Assembly: GCA_030263285.1 (NCBI GenBank)
Contig: SZYB01000001.1
Location: 1-64,000, forward strand
DNA: 64,000 bases
Reading direction: 5' to 3'
Origin: Bergeyella sp.
Lineage (GTDB): Bacteria > Bacteroidota > Bacteroidia > Flavobacteriales > Weeksellaceae
Part shown: positions 34,232-40,992 of the stretch, in pieces
How positions within the stretch are numbered: the first letter of the stretch is position 1
Layout: every line of letters starts with the position of its first letter
Notes under the pieces: model-generated
What the model saw: only the letters and a program-made list of their open reading frames with translations
What the model was told of the DNA's origin: nothing
The model's database searches: none
Translations under genes and position numbers: made by a program

Positions 34232-34305
34232 GCCTCCATAGCTCAGCTGGTCAGAGCACGTGATTTGTAATCTCGGGGTCGTGGGTTCGAATCCCTCTGG
34301 AGGCT
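34232..34305 (+). tRNA. tRNA-Thr (TGT anticodon)
   Basis: The acceptor stem GCCTCCA/TGGAGGC closes the molecule, the D-arm is GCTC-GAGC, the anticodon loop is TTTGTAA (anticodon TGT), and the T-loop is TTCGAAT. Both the anticodon stem (CGTGA/TCTCG) and the T stem (GTGGG/CCCTC) contain one T-T mismatch. It is the first of four tRNAs. Confidence 0.93.
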
Positions 34306-34316
34306 CGCAAAAGAAT

Positions 34317-34397
34317 GGGGAGATTCCAGAGCGGTCAAATGGGACTGACTGTAACTCAGTTGCTTCGGCTTCGTAGGTTCGAATCCTGCTCTCCCCA
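34317..34397 (+). tRNA. tRNA-Tyr (GTA anticodon)
   Basis: A class II tRNA with acceptor stem GGGGAGA/TCTCCCC, anticodon stem-loop ACTGA-CTGTAAC-TCAGT (anticodon GTA), and a long variable arm TGCTTCGGCTTCG. The discriminator is A, as required for Tyr. Confidence 0.95.
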
Positions 34398-34495
34398 CTT
34401 TCTTATTTTAATTTTTGGAAAAAAAATTGCAAGTTCTGAATTTTTAGTGTAAGTTCGCATACCGTTTGCCAACCTTTTTTTGGAAACAAAAGAAT

Positions 34496-34568
34496 GCGGA
34501 AGTAGCTCAGTTGGTAGAGCGTCAGCCTTCCAAGCTGAATGTCGCGGGTTCGACCCCCGTCTTCCGCT
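34496..34568 (+). tRNA. tRNA-Gly (TCC anticodon)
   Basis: Acceptor stem GCGGAAG pairs with CTTCCGC; the anticodon loop CTTCCAA gives TCC, reading GGA and related glycine codons; the discriminator is T. It lies 98 bases after tRNA-Tyr, a larger gap than the 11 bases between the first two. Confidence 0.95.
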
Positions 34569-34614
34569 CAAAATCACACCGAATACTTTTCTGGTTGTGG
34601 TTTTTTTTTACGAC

Positions 34615-34686
34615 GCCGATATAGCTCAGCGGTAGAGCGCTTCCTTGGTAAGGAAGAGGTCTCGGGTTCAAGTCCCGATATTGGCT
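34615..34686 (+). tRNA. tRNA-Thr (GGT anticodon)
   Basis: Acceptor stem GCCGATA pairs with TATTGGC with one G-T pair; anticodon stem-loop CTTCC-TTGGTAA-GGAAG gives GGT. In many bacteria this Thr-Tyr-Gly-Thr operon runs directly into tuf. Here it is followed by about 170 bases without a gene and then a LytTR regulator on the opposite strand. Confidence 0.95.
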
Positions 34687-34858
34687 CTGTCATTAGGTTT
34701 TGGTAATTAATAAATTACAGAATCTTAGAACCTTACGTTTCGGGGTATGGTCTGTTTTGCAACGTGTTTGTAAGCGTGATTATCAATTAAGATGGCGGCA
34801 AAATTTATTCTGGTCAAACACCCCGCTTTGAGGATAGAGTCCCGAGGAATTCTTTAGA

Positions 34859-35572
34859 TTAAATGGGTTGGGCAGGGAAGTTTCCTGAAAGCAACCGTTT
34901 GAACAATTCTCTTTTAAATGTGATTCCAATAGGAAGTGTTTTACCGGATACGACTACTTCTTTTTCCGAATAGTGTGATATTTTACCCAAATTAACGGCA
35001 AAAGATTTGTGAATCCGTACAAACCGTTTTGGGGAAAGGTGGGATAAAATTTCTTGTGTGGTGGTCGATGCCAGATAAAATCTCGAGCCGACATATACTT
35101 TGACATAATTGCCTAAACTTTGTACATAATCAACATCGGCTTCAGAAAGCTGTATTTTCTCTTTATCTACCTTGAGAGTTAAAGTTTTCGGCATAAAAAG
35201 TTCTGCTGCATTATGCAATGATAAAAACTTTTTCACCGCTTTCTGGAAACGAGGATAAGGAATGGGTTTTAGCAGGTAATCGACAACACCATAGTCATAA
35301 CTCTTCAGGGCGTATTGAGAATAGGCAGTGGTCAGTATGGCTTTGGGCGGATTGGGGTGTGATTGCAAAAATTCGAGCCCGCTTGTTTCGGGTACATGGA
35401 TGTCCAAGAACAGGAGATCGGTATCATTGTCCCTAAGGTATTCCGTGACCTCCGGAATATTATAGCATTGTGTAACCAACTGTAGCTGTGGAGACCTATT
35501 GATATAGTTTTTCAAAACCATATGTGCAGCAGGCTCGTCATCTACTATGATACAGGTAAATACTTCTCTCAT
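34859..35572 (-). CDS. LytTR-family response regulator
   Basis: A 237-residue regulator: receiver domain at residues about 5-120 with acidic IIVDDEPAAHM, the phosphorylated Asp in LLFLDIHVPETSGL and the conserved Lys in YLLKPIPYPRF; LytTR DNA-binding domain at about 140-232 with DVDYVQSLGNYVKVYV and KRFVRIHKSFAVNL. It is encoded 12 bases after the sensor kinase, so the two form a two-component system. The pair is divergent from the ApbE-Rnf-like operon and is the obvious candidate for its control, although no binding site is recognised. Confidence 0.92.
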   Translation of the reverse strand: MREVFTCIIVDDEPAAHMVLKNYINRSPQLQLVTQCYNIPEVTEYLRDNDTDLLFLDIHVPETSGLEFLQSHPNPPKAILTTAYSQYALKSYDYGVVDYLLKPIPYPRFQKAVKKFLSLHNAAELFMPKTLTLKVDKEKIQLSEADVDYVQSLGNYVKVYVGSRFYLASTTTQEILSHLSPKRFVRIHKSFAVNLGKISHYSEKEVVVSGKTLPIGITFKRELFKRLLSGNFPAQPI

Positions 35573-35584
35573 CCTTTATAACGT

Positions 35585-36595
35585 TTATAATGCGATTTGC
35601 AAGTAGGTGTTAAACTGACTTCCCCGCTCGTTTAATCGTAGACTGTATTTGTCGGGGTAAATCATTTGGAGCCTTGTTTTTGTATTTTCCAATCCTACTT
35701 TGGTGGAAGTGATATTGCTGATCGTCCTTGAAAGCGAATTACTAATTTCCAGTACCAATATTCCGTCGTTCACCTTTATGCCAATCTTTATAAAATTTCC
35801 ACTAATGTTCCCAGTTCCGTGTTTGAAAGCATTCTCAATAAACGTAAAGACAATCATGGGGGCGATGGAGTATTCTTCGACATTGTCAGTGGAGATATTA
35901 AGCTCAACGGAACACCGATACCCAAGACGTTCCTTCTCAACAGCGATATAACTTTCAATAAAAGCCATTTCATCTCTAAGCGGGACCCAATCTCTATTGC
36001 TGCTTTCGACTTGGTAGCGCAGGAGTTCCGATACTTTCATTATGGTATCGGGAATACGTTCGGGAAAATCGATGCTCAGACCATAAATCGTGTTCATCGT
36101 ATTGAACAGAAAATGAGGATTGAGCTGTTTGTTGAGTAAATCTATTTTTATTTTCTTTGACAGAATTTCCTTATCTGTTTCTTTTTTCTTTTTATGGTAA
36201 TGCTCTACAAAAAGAGAAGGTCCTGCTATGCAGATATAGGAACCTAAAAGTATCCCGAGCTGATACTGAAAAGACAGTTTAGCAGGGTTATTGTTCAAAA
36301 AGCAGGTCTTGTACAGAAAAATTTGTGCTATTTGGCTAAGGATTATTACAAAGGTCAATAATCCTAGTGACGTAAGAACAACATACATGTACACGTTTTG
36401 CTTTTTTAACAGAAAGGGCAGTATATAAAAGCGGTTGAGCTGTGCATGCACGTACAATACTAGATAATAGGCTCCTCCGAGGAAAAAGCTCTTCAGAGAA
36501 CTGATGAAGATCCAGTCGTTCAGTACAAACAAGATAAAGGAAAAGAGAAGTATCCCCAATTCCAAAACCCATTTGCGATCACCTAACAGTTTCAT
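35585..36595 (-). CDS. LytS-like sensor histidine kinase (His_kinase family)
   Basis: A 336-residue membrane kinase with four predicted membrane segments in the first ~150 residues (LELGILLFSFILFVLNDWIF; SFFLGGAYYLVLYVHAQL; YMYVVLTSLGLLTFVIIL; GILLGSYICIAGPSLF). The phospho-acceptor motif LNKQLNPHFLFNTMNTIYGL follows, and the ATP-binding domain has FTFIENAFKHGTGN (N-box) and VGLENTKTRLQMIY. There is no separate periplasmic sensor domain, so the signal is probably sensed in or near the membrane. It is the first gene of the regulator operon, 48 bases from the divergent small ORF. Confidence 0.92.
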   Translation of the reverse strand: MKLLGDRKWVLELGILLFSFILFVLNDWIFISSLKSFFLGGAYYLVLYVHAQLNRFYILPFLLKKQNVYMYVVLTSLGLLTFVIILSQIAQIFLYKTCFLNNNPAKLSFQYQLGILLGSYICIAGPSLFVEHYHKKKKETDKEILSKKIKIDLLNKQLNPHFLFNTMNTIYGLSIDFPERIPDTIMKVSELLRYQVESSNRDWVPLRDEMAFIESYIAVEKERLGYRCSVELNISTDNVEEYSIAPMIVFTFIENAFKHGTGNISGNFIKIGIKVNDGILVLEISNSLSRTISNITSTKVGLENTKTRLQMIYPDKYSLRLNERGSQFNTYLQIAL

Positions 36596-36643: not shown

Positions 36644-37069
36644 ATGATCAATGACCAATTCAAGTCGTCATTAAAATTTAATATACTTGGGTATGAATGT
36701 ACAGAAAGGATAATTTTGCGTAGTCATCAGTTAATCGATATGGTAAGAGTAAAACCGACACACGTACTTCTCTATCTAATAGGCGTTTCGTTTTTTGTTT
36801 TGGGAAATCGTAAGTTCTGGGATAAAATTCAGGAAGAAGAGAAGAAGAAAGAGCAGGAGAGAAAAAAACGTGAAAGGGCATATGTAGAGTCTTTCAAAAA
36901 ATTTGAAATACAGAATCTGATGTACGATAGTGTCAATAGAATTTGGAAGAATAACCATATCAGTTTTCAGAGGATACATATAGAAAAAGTGAGTTTCTCT
37001 CCCATGTCAAAGATAAATATGGCAAAAACTGAAACAAATGACGATGAGAACGCTTCAGAAAGCTTGTAA
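36644..37069 (+). CDS. small membrane/coiled-coil protein of unknown function
   Basis: This 141-residue frame (an alternative ATG at 36740 gives 109) has one hydrophobic segment, THVLLYLIGVSFFVLG, then a strongly charged helix (DKIQEEEKKKEQERKKRERA), consistent with an anchored coiled coil. No family is recognised and no cysteine pair, heme or FMN-attachment motif is present. The 3' end overlaps the apbE-like start by 32 bases in another frame, suggesting coupled translation. It may be a membrane adaptor for the electron-transfer proteins downstream. An alternative is that it and the ApbE-like gene were once one anchored protein, split by a frameshift. Confidence 0.5.
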   Translation: MINDQFKSSLKFNILGYECTERIILRSHQLIDMVRVKPTHVLLYLIGVSFFVLGNRKFWDKIQEEEKKKEQERKKRERAYVESFKKFEIQNLMYDSVNRIWKNNHISFQRIHIEKVSFSPMSKINMAKTETNDDENASESL

Positions 37070-37967
37070 ATCGTATTTGGCAAAAACCCAATTTCTGTTT
37101 CACTGTCACTTCAAGATTAAAATACCTTGCCAGTATGGTGAAATACTTTTGGATGAATGTTTTGATTTACTGGATACAATTGACTGTAATTATAATTCTT
37201 ATCGGCAGGGTTCCTATTTCCACCGGATCAACCAAAACGCGGGTCAATGGGTGCCCATTGATGAAGATTGTTTTTTTATACTTAGGAAAACACTTTTGGT
37301 ATCAGAATGCACGGGAGGTGCCTATAATATAGGCTGTACGCCGCTTTTGCGCTTATGGGGATTTTACCGTACAGACCATCGACATATTCCGAGTGATAAC
37401 GATATAAAGAAATTACTGGCGAAAATTGACTACCGTTCCATTGAACTGGAAGGAGAAAGAGTTCGCATTTCCGCAGACCAAGAGCTGATTACAGGATCGT
37501 TTATAAAATCTTTTGCCGTTGATAGGCTTGTAGATTTTTTGAAGAGCAAAGGGGTCTCTGATGCTGTTATTAATGCAGGGGGGAGTACAATTTTTGGTAT
37601 CAATGACAGTAAACACAAGTCATGGAAGGTAAATATACCAGGGCTGGATCATCTTAATATAGCCTCGCATCAGACGGTTATCCGTAACCAGTGTTTTAGT
37701 CTTTCGGCACGGTCAAATCAACCTATTCTCGTTCGGGGTAGAGAGTATGGTCATATACTCGATTCAAGTACGGGATATCCTGCTTCCACTTTACAGGTAG
37801 GGGTATGGAGTGATAAAGCATTTTTGGGTGATGTACTTTCAACCGCCATATTTTGTGTAGGACAGAATAAACTAGAAAATACGTTGGAACGGTTGAGGTC
37901 TGAATTCAGATTCGACTATTATCGGATAGAAGAAAACGGAACTAAAACGACTAATCTATGCTTTTGA
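37038..37967 (+). CDS. divergent ApbE-family FAD:protein FMN transferase
   Basis: ApbE attaches FMN to Thr or Ser of target proteins such as RnfD, RnfG and NqrB/C. Family segments appear in order over 309 residues: NYNSYRQGSYFHRIN, CTPLLRLWGFYR, FIKSFAVDRLVDFL (the AKGYAVD motif), VINAGGSTIFG, GHILDSSTGYPA (the HILDPxTG motif with its His) and LGDVLSTAIFCVG (metal-binding Asp and Thr). Several otherwise conserved positions are changed: Asp before the LWGF motif is Asn, GG of the GGIAKG motif is GS, Pro in HILDP is Ser. There is no export signal, whereas ApbE serving Rnf complexes is usually periplasmic. It overlaps both neighbours and so is coupled to rnfC. Confidence 0.82.
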   Translation: MTMRTLQKACKSYLAKTQFLFHCHFKIKIPCQYGEILLDECFDLLDTIDCNYNSYRQGSYFHRINQNAGQWVPIDEDCFFILRKTLLVSECTGGAYNIGCTPLLRLWGFYRTDHRHIPSDNDIKKLLAKIDYRSIELEGERVRISADQELITGSFIKSFAVDRLVDFLKSKGVSDAVINAGGSTIFGINDSKHKSWKVNIPGLDHLNIASHQTVIRNQCFSLSARSNQPILVRGREYGHILDSSTGYPASTLQVGVWSDKAFLGDVLSTAIFCVGQNKLENTLERLRSEFRFDYYRIEENGTKTTNLCF

Positions 37968-39211
37968 TCCCCTCCAAAAAGAAAAAGACTCGACATTGTG
38001 CTGTCGAAACCATTAGAGATCCGAGAGATTTTTATCTGCCTCTGGATGCGTACCGAGGTACGTTGGAGCCCATTGTTGAGCTGGGTCAAAAAATACGTAA
38101 ATACCAATGCGTGGCACATCTGGAAGGAACGTTTGCAACCCGACTTCACGCACCTGTTTCAGGGAGGATAAAAGCGTTTGTTTTGATAGACGGGAAGCAG
38201 TATATCCATTTGGAAAACGACTTCAAAGATCTAGAGATGGCTGTTTCGTCTCTGGACACAACAAAACTGACGGTAGAAGGTTTTTCTGAAATTCTTGCAC
38301 AACTGGGCATTGAGGGGTCCGGAGGCTCCCGCTTTCCTACCCAGATGAAATACCGAGTAAAAGAGGGTCGTATCGAAACGTTGATTTTCAACGGAGTTGA
38401 GTGTGAGCCTTATCTAAGTGCCGACACTGTCCTAATGAAAGAGAAAGGAGAGGAATTGCTTAGGGCAGCTCAGCTTGTCCAAAGTGTTTTAAAGGCGCGT
38501 CGGGTCATATTTGTTATCGAAAAGCAGAATAGTGATGTCAGGATAATTTTGGATAATGAGGCAAAAAAGCTAGGCATTCCTGTAGAGTTCTGTATGGTCT
38601 CTAACACCTACCCACAGGGTGGAGAACTTCAGGTGATCAGATCGGTTACCGGACTTGAATTAAAAAAAGGTGAAATTCCTGGTTTGTACGGAATACTGCT
38701 CAACAATGTGGGAACGTTGTGGGCTATTTATCGGGGGATATTTGAAGGTAAACCCTATACTGAAAGGGTATTGACCATTTCGGGGAATCAGAGTACAGGG
38801 CAGGGGAATTATTGGGTAAAGATAGGGACGCCTGTTTCTCATTTGTTGAACGAAGCTCAAAATAAATTTGACGTGGAGGGATGTTTAGTCGTGTTGGGCG
38901 GAGCCATGATGGGAAAAGCTGTATTCTCCCTTTCTACTGGTGTTAATAAGGGTTCGGGGGGGCTCCTTCTCCTGAAAAAACAAAAGAAAGCAGCACTGAA
39001 CTGCATCAAATGTGGCGCATGTGTTGATGTCTGTCCGCAGCGGCTGATGCCGCTGGAATTCGTGAGGCATGTCGAAAACAAAAGTGTGGGTTTGCTAAGG
39101 GCTTTTTACTTGCAAAACTGTATCGAATGTGGTGCTTGTGCCTACGTTTGCCCTAGTCATGTTCCCTTGATGGAGAATATATTTAAAGGAAAAAACATGT
39201 TGTCATCATGA
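37958..39211 (+). CDS. RnfC-type NADH:electron-transfer subunit
   Basis: RnfC oxidises NADH with FMN and passes electrons through 4Fe-4S clusters to membrane partners. The 417-residue protein keeps the flavin/NADH site (EGSGGSRFPTQMKYR; FNGVECEPYLSAD; YPQGGELQVIRSVTG; NVGTLWAIYRGI) and two ferredoxin motifs near the C-terminus, CIKCGACVDVCP and CIECGACAYVCP. It is somewhat shorter than full Rnf relatives. It starts inside the ApbE-like gene (10-base overlap) and its stop overlaps the rnfD start (ATGA), so all three are translationally coupled. rnfA, B, E and G are not present. Confidence 0.92.
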   Translation: MLLIPSKKKKTRHCAVETIRDPRDFYLPLDAYRGTLEPIVELGQKIRKYQCVAHLEGTFATRLHAPVSGRIKAFVLIDGKQYIHLENDFKDLEMAVSSLDTTKLTVEGFSEILAQLGIEGSGGSRFPTQMKYRVKEGRIETLIFNGVECEPYLSADTVLMKEKGEELLRAAQLVQSVLKARRVIFVIEKQNSDVRIILDNEAKKLGIPVEFCMVSNTYPQGGELQVIRSVTGLELKKGEIPGLYGILLNNVGTLWAIYRGIFEGKPYTERVLTISGNQSTGQGNYWVKIGTPVSHLLNEAQNKFDVEGCLVVLGGAMMGKAVFSLSTGVNKGSGGLLLLKKQKKAALNCIKCGACVDVCPQRLMPLEFVRHVENKSVGLLRAFYLQNCIECGACAYVCPSHVPLMENIFKGKNMLSS

Positions 39212-40293
39212 GTCTGCATCCACACATAAAGCCTCGTTTTAATAGCACGCAGTTGGTAATGTTCGATGTACTTATTGCTCTGTTTCCTGTACTTATTGTT
39301 GGGTGGATGGCTTACGGAAAAATTTTACTTGTGCAGCTGGGCGTGGCACTGGGATCGGCACTGGTAACAGATTTTGTATTCTCGTCAGTTTTTTTGAAAA
39401 AATACGACAGCGTTTTGGACGGATCTTCGGTTGTAACTGCTATTTTATTGGTCTGCACACTTGCCCCTCTCACGCCTTGGTATGTCGTGTCTTTTGGTGC
39501 TTTTTCTGCTATACTTTTGGGTAAGATCGTATGGGGAGGACTCGGAAAAAACCGCTTTAATCCCGCGTTGGTGGGACGTGAATTTATGTCGGTGTTTTTT
39601 ACCGCCGCAATGACCTCACCAATGCTTTGGAAATCAGGCGACCTGATACGTCAGGAGACGGTCAATCTATTTCATGGAATGGCTTCTCCCTATGTTTCCA
39701 AATATTTGTCAGCAGTGATTTACAAGACCGATGGTGCAATGGGCGAATACTCTATTTTGGCCATTTTCATCGGAGGATTATATCTTCTCTTCCGCAGCCG
39801 AATATCGTGGCATATTCCTTTGTCATTGCTATTGACTTGGTCTGTCCTAAGCTGGATAAATGGCACAGCGGGTACGCAGTATTCTGTTGCGGGTATCCTG
39901 TTGGGAACCGTTTTTATGGCTACCGATATGCCCTCAAGTCCTACCACACCAAATGGAAAATTGTTTTATGGAGTAATGACCGGTGTCTGTCTCTTTATCT
40001 TTATCAAAGAAGGGATACGTTTTGAGTATATGTCCTTTTCCATTCTTTTGATGAATGGCTTTGCAGATAGGATAAGCATGGTATTTAATCCCAGAGCTTG
40101 GGGCGAAAAACAAGACTATAAGCGAAAAATGGAGGAGGTATTTGTATTGACATTAAAAATTCTGACGGTATCATTTGCTGTTCTTACACTGTATCGGTAC
40201 GGATGGATAAACTATGTCGTTTTTACCTATATGATTTATATCGTTTTTAAGTTTAATTTTTCATTTGCTCAAGCAGTCAATAAATATGTTTAA
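39208..40293 (+). CDS. RnfD-type membrane subunit, atypical flavinylation site
   Basis: RnfD is a multi-helix membrane protein that normally carries covalent FMN on its outer side. The 361 residues contain the family segments GGLGKNRFNPALVGREF, GEYSILAIFIGGLYLL and FMATDMPSSPTTPNGKLFYG plus about nine hydrophobic helices. In relatives the segment between these carries a D-x-x-SGAT motif whose Thr holds FMN. Here the corresponding stretch is GDLIRQETVNLF: a Thr (Thr151) stands at the aligned position but SGA is replaced by RQE. So FMN attachment is plausible but not assured. The 4-base overlap with rnfC indicates coupled translation. Confidence 0.88.
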   Translation: MSLHPHIKPRFNSTQLVMFDVLIALFPVLIVGWMAYGKILLVQLGVALGSALVTDFVFSSVFLKKYDSVLDGSSVVTAILLVCTLAPLTPWYVVSFGAFSAILLGKIVWGGLGKNRFNPALVGREFMSVFFTAAMTSPMLWKSGDLIRQETVNLFHGMASPYVSKYLSAVIYKTDGAMGEYSILAIFIGGLYLLFRSRISWHIPLSLLLTWSVLSWINGTAGTQYSVAGILLGTVFMATDMPSSPTTPNGKLFYGVMTGVCLFIFIKEGIRFEYMSFSILLMNGFADRISMVFNPRAWGEKQDYKRKMEEVFVLTLKILTVSFAVLTLYRYGWINYVVFTYMIYIVFKFNFSFAQAVNKYV

Positions 40294-40317
40294 TAAAAAA
40301 ATAAGAGTTCAGCAGAT

Positions 40318-40992
40318 ATGTCCGAAAACAAAAAAATGAGTAGATCTTCCTTTCTGGGGGTGTTGGGAGTACTTGGCACAGTGCCGTTGTTAACTGCGGG
40401 TTGTAAAGAAAAAAAAATTGAACGTGTGGTATATAAAGGGGGGAACAAGGAGGCTATCCTCAACAATATACTGACCCGAAGGGCGATCCGAAAGTATACA
40501 GATCAGGAGGTTGCGCAGGAGATGCTTGATACGGTGATGAGGTGTGCTATTTTCGCCCCCAGTGCTACCAATGCCCAGCCTTGGGAGGTGAGAGTGATCC
40601 GAAATCAGGATATCCTAACGGAGATAAATGAACGGTGGAGAAAAACGGCTGCAAAGAAAGACACTGCCCTTGCCCGTGATCTGGAATTCAGTGTGTTTCA
40701 CCATGCCCCGGTACTTATCGTAATAGCAGGCGATTCCAAAAATCCAAAAGCCAGAGTGGACGTGGGGATCATGCTGCAGACTATATTGCTTAGCGCTCAT
40801 GGACTGGGTCTGGGGACGTGCCCGATAGGAATGTTGATCCCCCCGTTAACCCTTCCCGAAAATCGGGATATCATAAAATTACTCAATATTCCGGAAGGAT
40901 ATGAAGTCATGGGGAATGTAGCTTTGGGATATCCCGATGAAAGTCCAGAAGCCCCAGTCAGGTTCAGCGATAAGGTGAAATATATAGTGTAG
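40318..40992 (+). CDS. nitroreductase-family lipoprotein
   Basis: The protein belongs to the FMN-dependent nitroreductase fold (ILTRRAIRKYTDQEV; FAPSATNAQPWEVRVI; DVGIMLQTILLSAHGLGLGT; GNVALGYPDESPEAP), 224 residues. Unusually it has an export signal, SRSSFLGVLGVLGTVPLL, ending in lipobox LTAGC (Cys29). The S-R-S-S-F-L start resembles a Tat motif with one arginine missing. Most nitroreductases are cytosolic and use NAD(P)H. An exported one would need another electron source, which the coupled RnfC/RnfD genes 24 bases upstream could provide. The substrate is unknown; quinone, flavin or nitro compounds are possible. Confidence 0.85.
   Translation: MSENKKMSRSSFLGVLGVLGTVPLLTAGCKEKKIERVVYKGGNKEAILNNILTRRAIRKYTDQEVAQEMLDTVMRCAIFAPSATNAQPWEVRVIRNQDILTEINERWRKTAAKKDTALARDLEFSVFHHAPVLIVIAGDSKNPKARVDVGIMLQTILLSAHGLGLGTCPIGMLIPPLTLPENRDIIKLLNIPEGYEVMGNVALGYPDESPEAPVRFSDKVKYIV

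Follow-up and report, generated by a model that had tools for sequence, protein, structure and literature searches.

A five-gene module in the window (the whole 64,000-nucleotide stretch of Bergeyella sp. DNA analysed here) places RnfC and a diverged RnfD next to an exported nitroreductase. We rate the chance as slightly better than even that it works as a stand-alone half-Rnf electron-export module, in which electrons would pass from NADH via RnfC and RnfD to the nitroreductase lipoprotein and on to an outside substrate. The genes span positions 36740-40992, lie on the plus strand 3′ of a divergent LytS/LytTR pair and follow the order small one-helix membrane protein, signal-less ApbE, RnfC, RnfD, nitroreductase lipoprotein. 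Pfam and NCBIfam searches bore out the gene content given in a preliminary description of the locus, identifying ApbE, RnfC, an RnfD-family protein and a nitroreductase, with LytS-like and LytTR regulators upstream. The features of the locus are:

34859-35572, minus strand: LytTR response regulator (PF00072 and PF04397; 51% identical to the module-adjacent one in genome G267)
35585-36595, minus strand: LytS-type membrane histidine kinase (PF06580; 49% identical over its full length to the one in G267)
36650-36672, no strand: near-palindrome AATGACCAATTCAAGTCGTCATT, self-complementary at 18 of 23 bases (candidate operator, located between the divergent genes)
36740-37069, plus strand: small one-helix membrane protein of 109 aa (conserved in all five loci)
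37038-37967, plus strand: ApbE-type FMN transferase without signal peptide (PF02424, 169.8 bits)
37958-39211, plus strand: RnfC with NADH/FMN domain and two 4Fe-4S motifs (above the TIGR01945 cut-off)
39208-40293, plus strand: RnfD-derived membrane subunit (PF03116; below the TIGR01946 cut-off)
40318-40992, plus strand: nitroreductase-fold FMN protein with lipoprotein signal (PF00881, 116.8 bits; lipobox-type Cys)

The first gene (orf1) overlaps apbE by 32 nt, apbE overlaps rnfC by 10 nt and rnfC overlaps rnfD by 4 nt; a gap of 24 nt separates rnfD from the nitroreductase gene. For the first gene, a start at 36644 had been given earlier. This is probably too early, and the gene more likely starts at 36740 (MVRVKPTH...), because the preceding stretch has no counterpart in the relatives and contains the operator-like palindrome. 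The start of apbE lies in the +1 frame inside the end of the small-protein gene in 5/5 loci (overlap 32-44 nt; window 37038-37069), which suggests translational coupling. Four tRNA genes (Thr, Tyr, Gly, Thr) are located at 34232-34687, immediately ahead of the regulator gene. No direct repeats of at least 15 bases linking the tRNA genes to the rest of the window were found, and a tRNA-linked insertion at the locus was rejected, as no such repeats lie beside the module.

The identical five genes in the identical order were observed in four further genomes (loci L107, L108, L112 and L113), whose flanks mostly differ, and the five genomes span two families. The window genome (1.68 Mb) is 99.99% complete and those of the relatives are near-complete. 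Genome searches confirmed the proposed co-occurrence of the five genes without rnfA/E/G in all five. Genome-wide, no protein of PF02508 (RnfA/E, NqrD/E) or PF04205 (FMN_bind, RnfG-type) was found in any of them, and positive controls were detected in the search of the window genome. Because both families are missing from all five genomes, the module is, as judged by RnfA/E and RnfG, not a split Rnf. The original proposal stood to fall if the missing subunits were encoded elsewhere in the genome, and for RnfA/E and RnfG this objection is avoided; RnfB is absent from the window locus. A dispersed but otherwise ordinary Rnf complex, with which the score of RnfC above its family cut-off would agree, is extremely improbable: it is refuted for RnfA/E and RnfG in five near-complete genomes, and the flavinylation site of RnfD is lost. 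In public RnfD/NqrB loci with enough flank, rnfD or nqrB stands beside rnfG and rnfE/A, and the module loci alone lack these neighbours; the comparison covers contigs from an RnfD scan and the loci of the relatives, a few of which end too soon to tell. The public-contig RnfD scan returned ordinary Rnf/NQR loci only.

No copies of RnfC or RnfD besides those of the window were found in the genome. RnfC reaches 344.6 bits with TIGR01945 (cut-off 246) and matches the solved RnfC of 7zc6 at 4e-92. Both CxxCxxCxxxCP motifs are present, all eight cluster cysteines are kept, and identity to the window protein across the relatives is 45-55%. RnfD (42-62% identity across the relatives) scores 234 bits with PF03116 but only 184 bits with TIGR01946, below the cut-off of 207. 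In an alignment of 102 RnfD/NqrB proteins (5 module, 97 non-module), the flavinylation-type motif, which places a threonine in the periplasmic loop, was absent from all five module RnfDs and present in 97/97 comparison proteins; since the motif pattern was widened to the variants among the 97, the contrast is total absence in the module and not departure from a fixed consensus. The earlier claim that RnfD carries covalent FMN added by ApbE is therefore unsupported. Module RnfDs also carry a C-terminal extension of 60-62 residues in 5/5 proteins, compared to a median of 8 and a maximum of 16 elsewhere, and in a maximum-likelihood tree they form one clade on a long branch (support 100/100). By these sequence comparisons, module RnfD is a monophyletic diverged branch that has lost the covalent-FMN threonine and gained an approximately 60-residue C-terminal extension. 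Its structure prediction (mean pLDDT 54.7) is too low in confidence for a fold search. In L036, L037 and L032, ordinary RnfDs show variants of the flavinylation motif (TMATA, TQPTP, SQSTP) but retain its threonine. A functionless, decaying Rnf remnant would fit the partial gene set and its rare and patchy occurrence. It is very improbable, given five full-length frames in kept order across five lineages with conserved cofactor residues, an apparent horizontal transfer and shared derived RnfD features.

In the solved Rnf, the two 4Fe-4S clusters of RnfC bridge the RnfD riboflavin to FMN and NAD(H) (PMC12174285), so that RnfC and RnfD alone would make a continuous wire, one arm of the complex. 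According to the electron-export reading, RnfC would oxidise cytoplasmic NADH via FMN and its two 4Fe-4S clusters, and the modified RnfD would carry the electrons across the inner membrane via a non-covalently bound flavin. The membrane-anchored nitroreductase, having no NAD(P)H outside the cytoplasm, would receive them from RnfD and reduce an extracytoplasmic substrate, for instance a quinone or a nitro compound. Because the RnfA/E-B-G arm is missing, electrons would flow in one direction only, with no ion pumping. The small membrane protein would act as scaffold or electron relay and may stand where RnfG stood. We infer electron direction, partner contacts, substrate and ApbE target from the anatomy of the module. 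If this reading is true, the NADH-side half of Rnf can by itself conduct electrons across the membrane, and an extracytoplasmic nitroreductase has a natural electron source. Several points count against it. Lacking covalent FMN, RnfD may pass electrons on poorly, unless that cofactor is replaced by a non-covalent flavin or by the small protein. An exported nitroreductase would need a supply of FMN outside the cytoplasm, and the sorting of lipoproteins in Bacteroidota could carry it to the cell surface, out of direct reach of RnfD.

The nitroreductase is the last module gene in 5/5 loci; its absence from relatives had been named beforehand as grounds for rejecting the proposal. An export signal is present in all five proteins and the lipobox-type cysteine is invariant; identity to the window protein is 49-57%. 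The protein resembles the nitroreductase superfamily (nearest solved 5j62, 3ek3) in its family match and FMN-binding sequence pattern, and differs by its lipoprotein export signal and its fixed operon with RnfCD. It is possible, though unlikely, that RnfCD exports NADH electrons to another acceptor (membrane quinone, free flavin or an envelope protein) and that the nitroreductase, though regulated together with them, detoxifies with electrons from another source. In NQR, quinone is reduced by NqrB (PMC12174285), the C-terminal extension of RnfD might provide a new site, and the contact between RnfD and the nitroreductase is something we only infer. On the other hand, the constant last position of the nitroreductase gene and its export signal argue against this alternative, and outside the cytoplasm the enzyme would need an electron source other than NAD(P)H. 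Inward flow, in which the exported nitroreductase-fold enzyme would oxidise an outside substrate and electrons would pass via RnfD and RnfC to NADH, seems improbable. RnfC does reduce NAD+ in forward Rnf (PMC12174285), and some members of the superfamily oxidise their substrates, for example albonoursin synthase, which was a distant match here. However, most named homologues are reductases, and reduction of NAD+ by most such substrates would require coupling to an ion gradient.

Compared to the Rnf complex RnfABCDGE (solved 7zc6, 8ahx, 9eri), the module shares the RnfC and RnfD core, whereas no RnfA/E or RnfG was found and RnfD lacks the covalent FMN site and carries the extra C-terminal part of about 60 aa. 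For NQR/RNF-like one-arm systems, a one-way electron flow from NAD(P)H to the outside has been proposed (Meheust et al. 2021, PMC8238504; Huang et al. 2024, PMC11334425), and proposals of one-way reduced systems without the RnfD threonine are already in print (PMC8238504, PMC11334425). In these systems, the membrane subunit carries a fused NqrF-type NAD-binding domain, and the outside partner is an FMN-binding domain protein (PMC8238504, PMC11334425). Common to both are a single NQR/RNF arm and a membrane subunit of the NqrB/RnfD type in which the flavinylation threonine is missing. Measured against the definition of Meheust 2021, module RnfD differs in matching PF03116 only, with no fused PF00175 domain, and RnfC forms the NADH side. 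The module genomes also have no PF04205 partner, and a nitroreductase lipoprotein takes the outside position. The best reading is that the module resembles the published NQR/RNF-like systems in logic and is built from different parts. In a literature search that left subscription papers mostly out of reach, we found no description of this gene set, nor of an exported nitroreductase under the phrases tried.

The ApbE of the window is the sole ApbE in its genome (42-50% identity across the relatives). Its triad Ser223/His239/Asp265, known from FmnB and V. cholerae ApbE (PMC12052999), is invariant across the five module loci. An N-terminal hydrophobic segment is absent from all five proteins, and the enzyme is therefore probably cytosolic. 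A search of the whole genome for D-x-x-[S/T]-G-A-[S/T] gave 11 DNA matches, compared to 4 in a reversed control, and no convincing ApbE target. The in-frame matches were one acyl-CoA dehydrogenase, one FAD oxidoreductase and one doubtful ORF, and canonical ApbE targets in the genome were rejected on these counts. When the five module proteins were scanned for the looser pattern [ST]xA[ST], only scattered, non-conserved matches appeared. The cytosolic ApbE of Klebsiella pneumoniae (as reviewed in PMC12052999) likewise has no signal peptide and keeps the catalytic triad; in contrast, no DxxSGAT-type target was found in the module genome. Module ApbE appears catalytically intact and would act on something other than RnfD. 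It is puzzling that ApbE is intact when its usual target in the operon no longer has the modification site; the export reading leaves unexplained a signal-less ApbE that seems competent but has no visible target, and this counts against it. The NAGG-Ser of module ApbE (window 37575-37586) is invariant in the five, and relatives often have Asp after GG.

The small protein (31-40% identity across the relatives) has no Pfam family match. It consists of a hydrophobic helix, a long charged helix, a beta hairpin and a conserved acidic tail, ExA[ST][ED]S; the structure model is of low confidence (mean pLDDT 62), and the charge distribution leaves the membrane side ambiguous. The tail is conserved despite its DNA overlapping the variable apbE start, and it is a candidate, and only a candidate, for FMN attachment by ApbE. 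It is doubtful, but conceivable, that the covalent flavin has moved, with ApbE modifying a non-canonical site such as this tail instead of RnfD and the small protein serving as a new flavin relay from the half-Rnf wire to the exported nitroreductase. A disguised RnfG was rejected for the small protein, with no Pfam match and no FMN_bind-like fold in the low-confidence model. A TatA-like protein, for which FG[NQ][RK] after a short helix had seemed to speak, was rejected as well, since no supporting Pfam match appeared even at E 10.

The module occurs in less than 1% of the genomes sampled. An RnfC search of 296 genomes of the family gave two relatives besides the window. RnfD searches gave one further carrier among 396 genomes of the order, one more among 299 genomes in the genus of the order-level match, and none besides the window among 395 genomes of the phylum. 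In a tree of the five concatenated proteins, the window pairs with a genome of the other family, that of locus L112 (support 100/100), and trees keeping the families apart were rejected (AU p < 0.001); single-gene trees were weakly supported, except RnfD and RnfC. This conflict between module tree and families, together with the rarity of the module, indicates horizontal transfer, with an old duplication followed by loss as a possible alternative. Carriage on plasmids was rejected: in the plasmid matches listed, no RnfD exceeded 35% identity. In G300 (L108:4734-9801), short ORFs downstream of the module look, by eye, like transposase and IstB-like fragments, which fits a mobile past.

Control by the adjacent two-component pair, as first proposed, is supported in part. 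The pair is linked to the module in 2/5 loci, the window and G267 (divergent), and these two share the operator-like palindrome: 20/23 bases of the near-palindrome match the G267 site, compared to a shuffle maximum of 18 in 60 trials. In the other three loci the pair does not adjoin the module; the L108 contig begins 192 bases upstream and cannot be judged. A weaker match to the near-palindrome was found in G1072 and none in G300 or G519; as the search pattern was derived from these sequences, its zero chance expectation is not independent evidence. In G519 (L112:3385-5901), a single case seen by eye, a same-strand arsenic-type cluster (ArsR-like, ArsC-like phosphatase, Acr3-like transporter) lies upstream, about 270 nt before the first module ORF.
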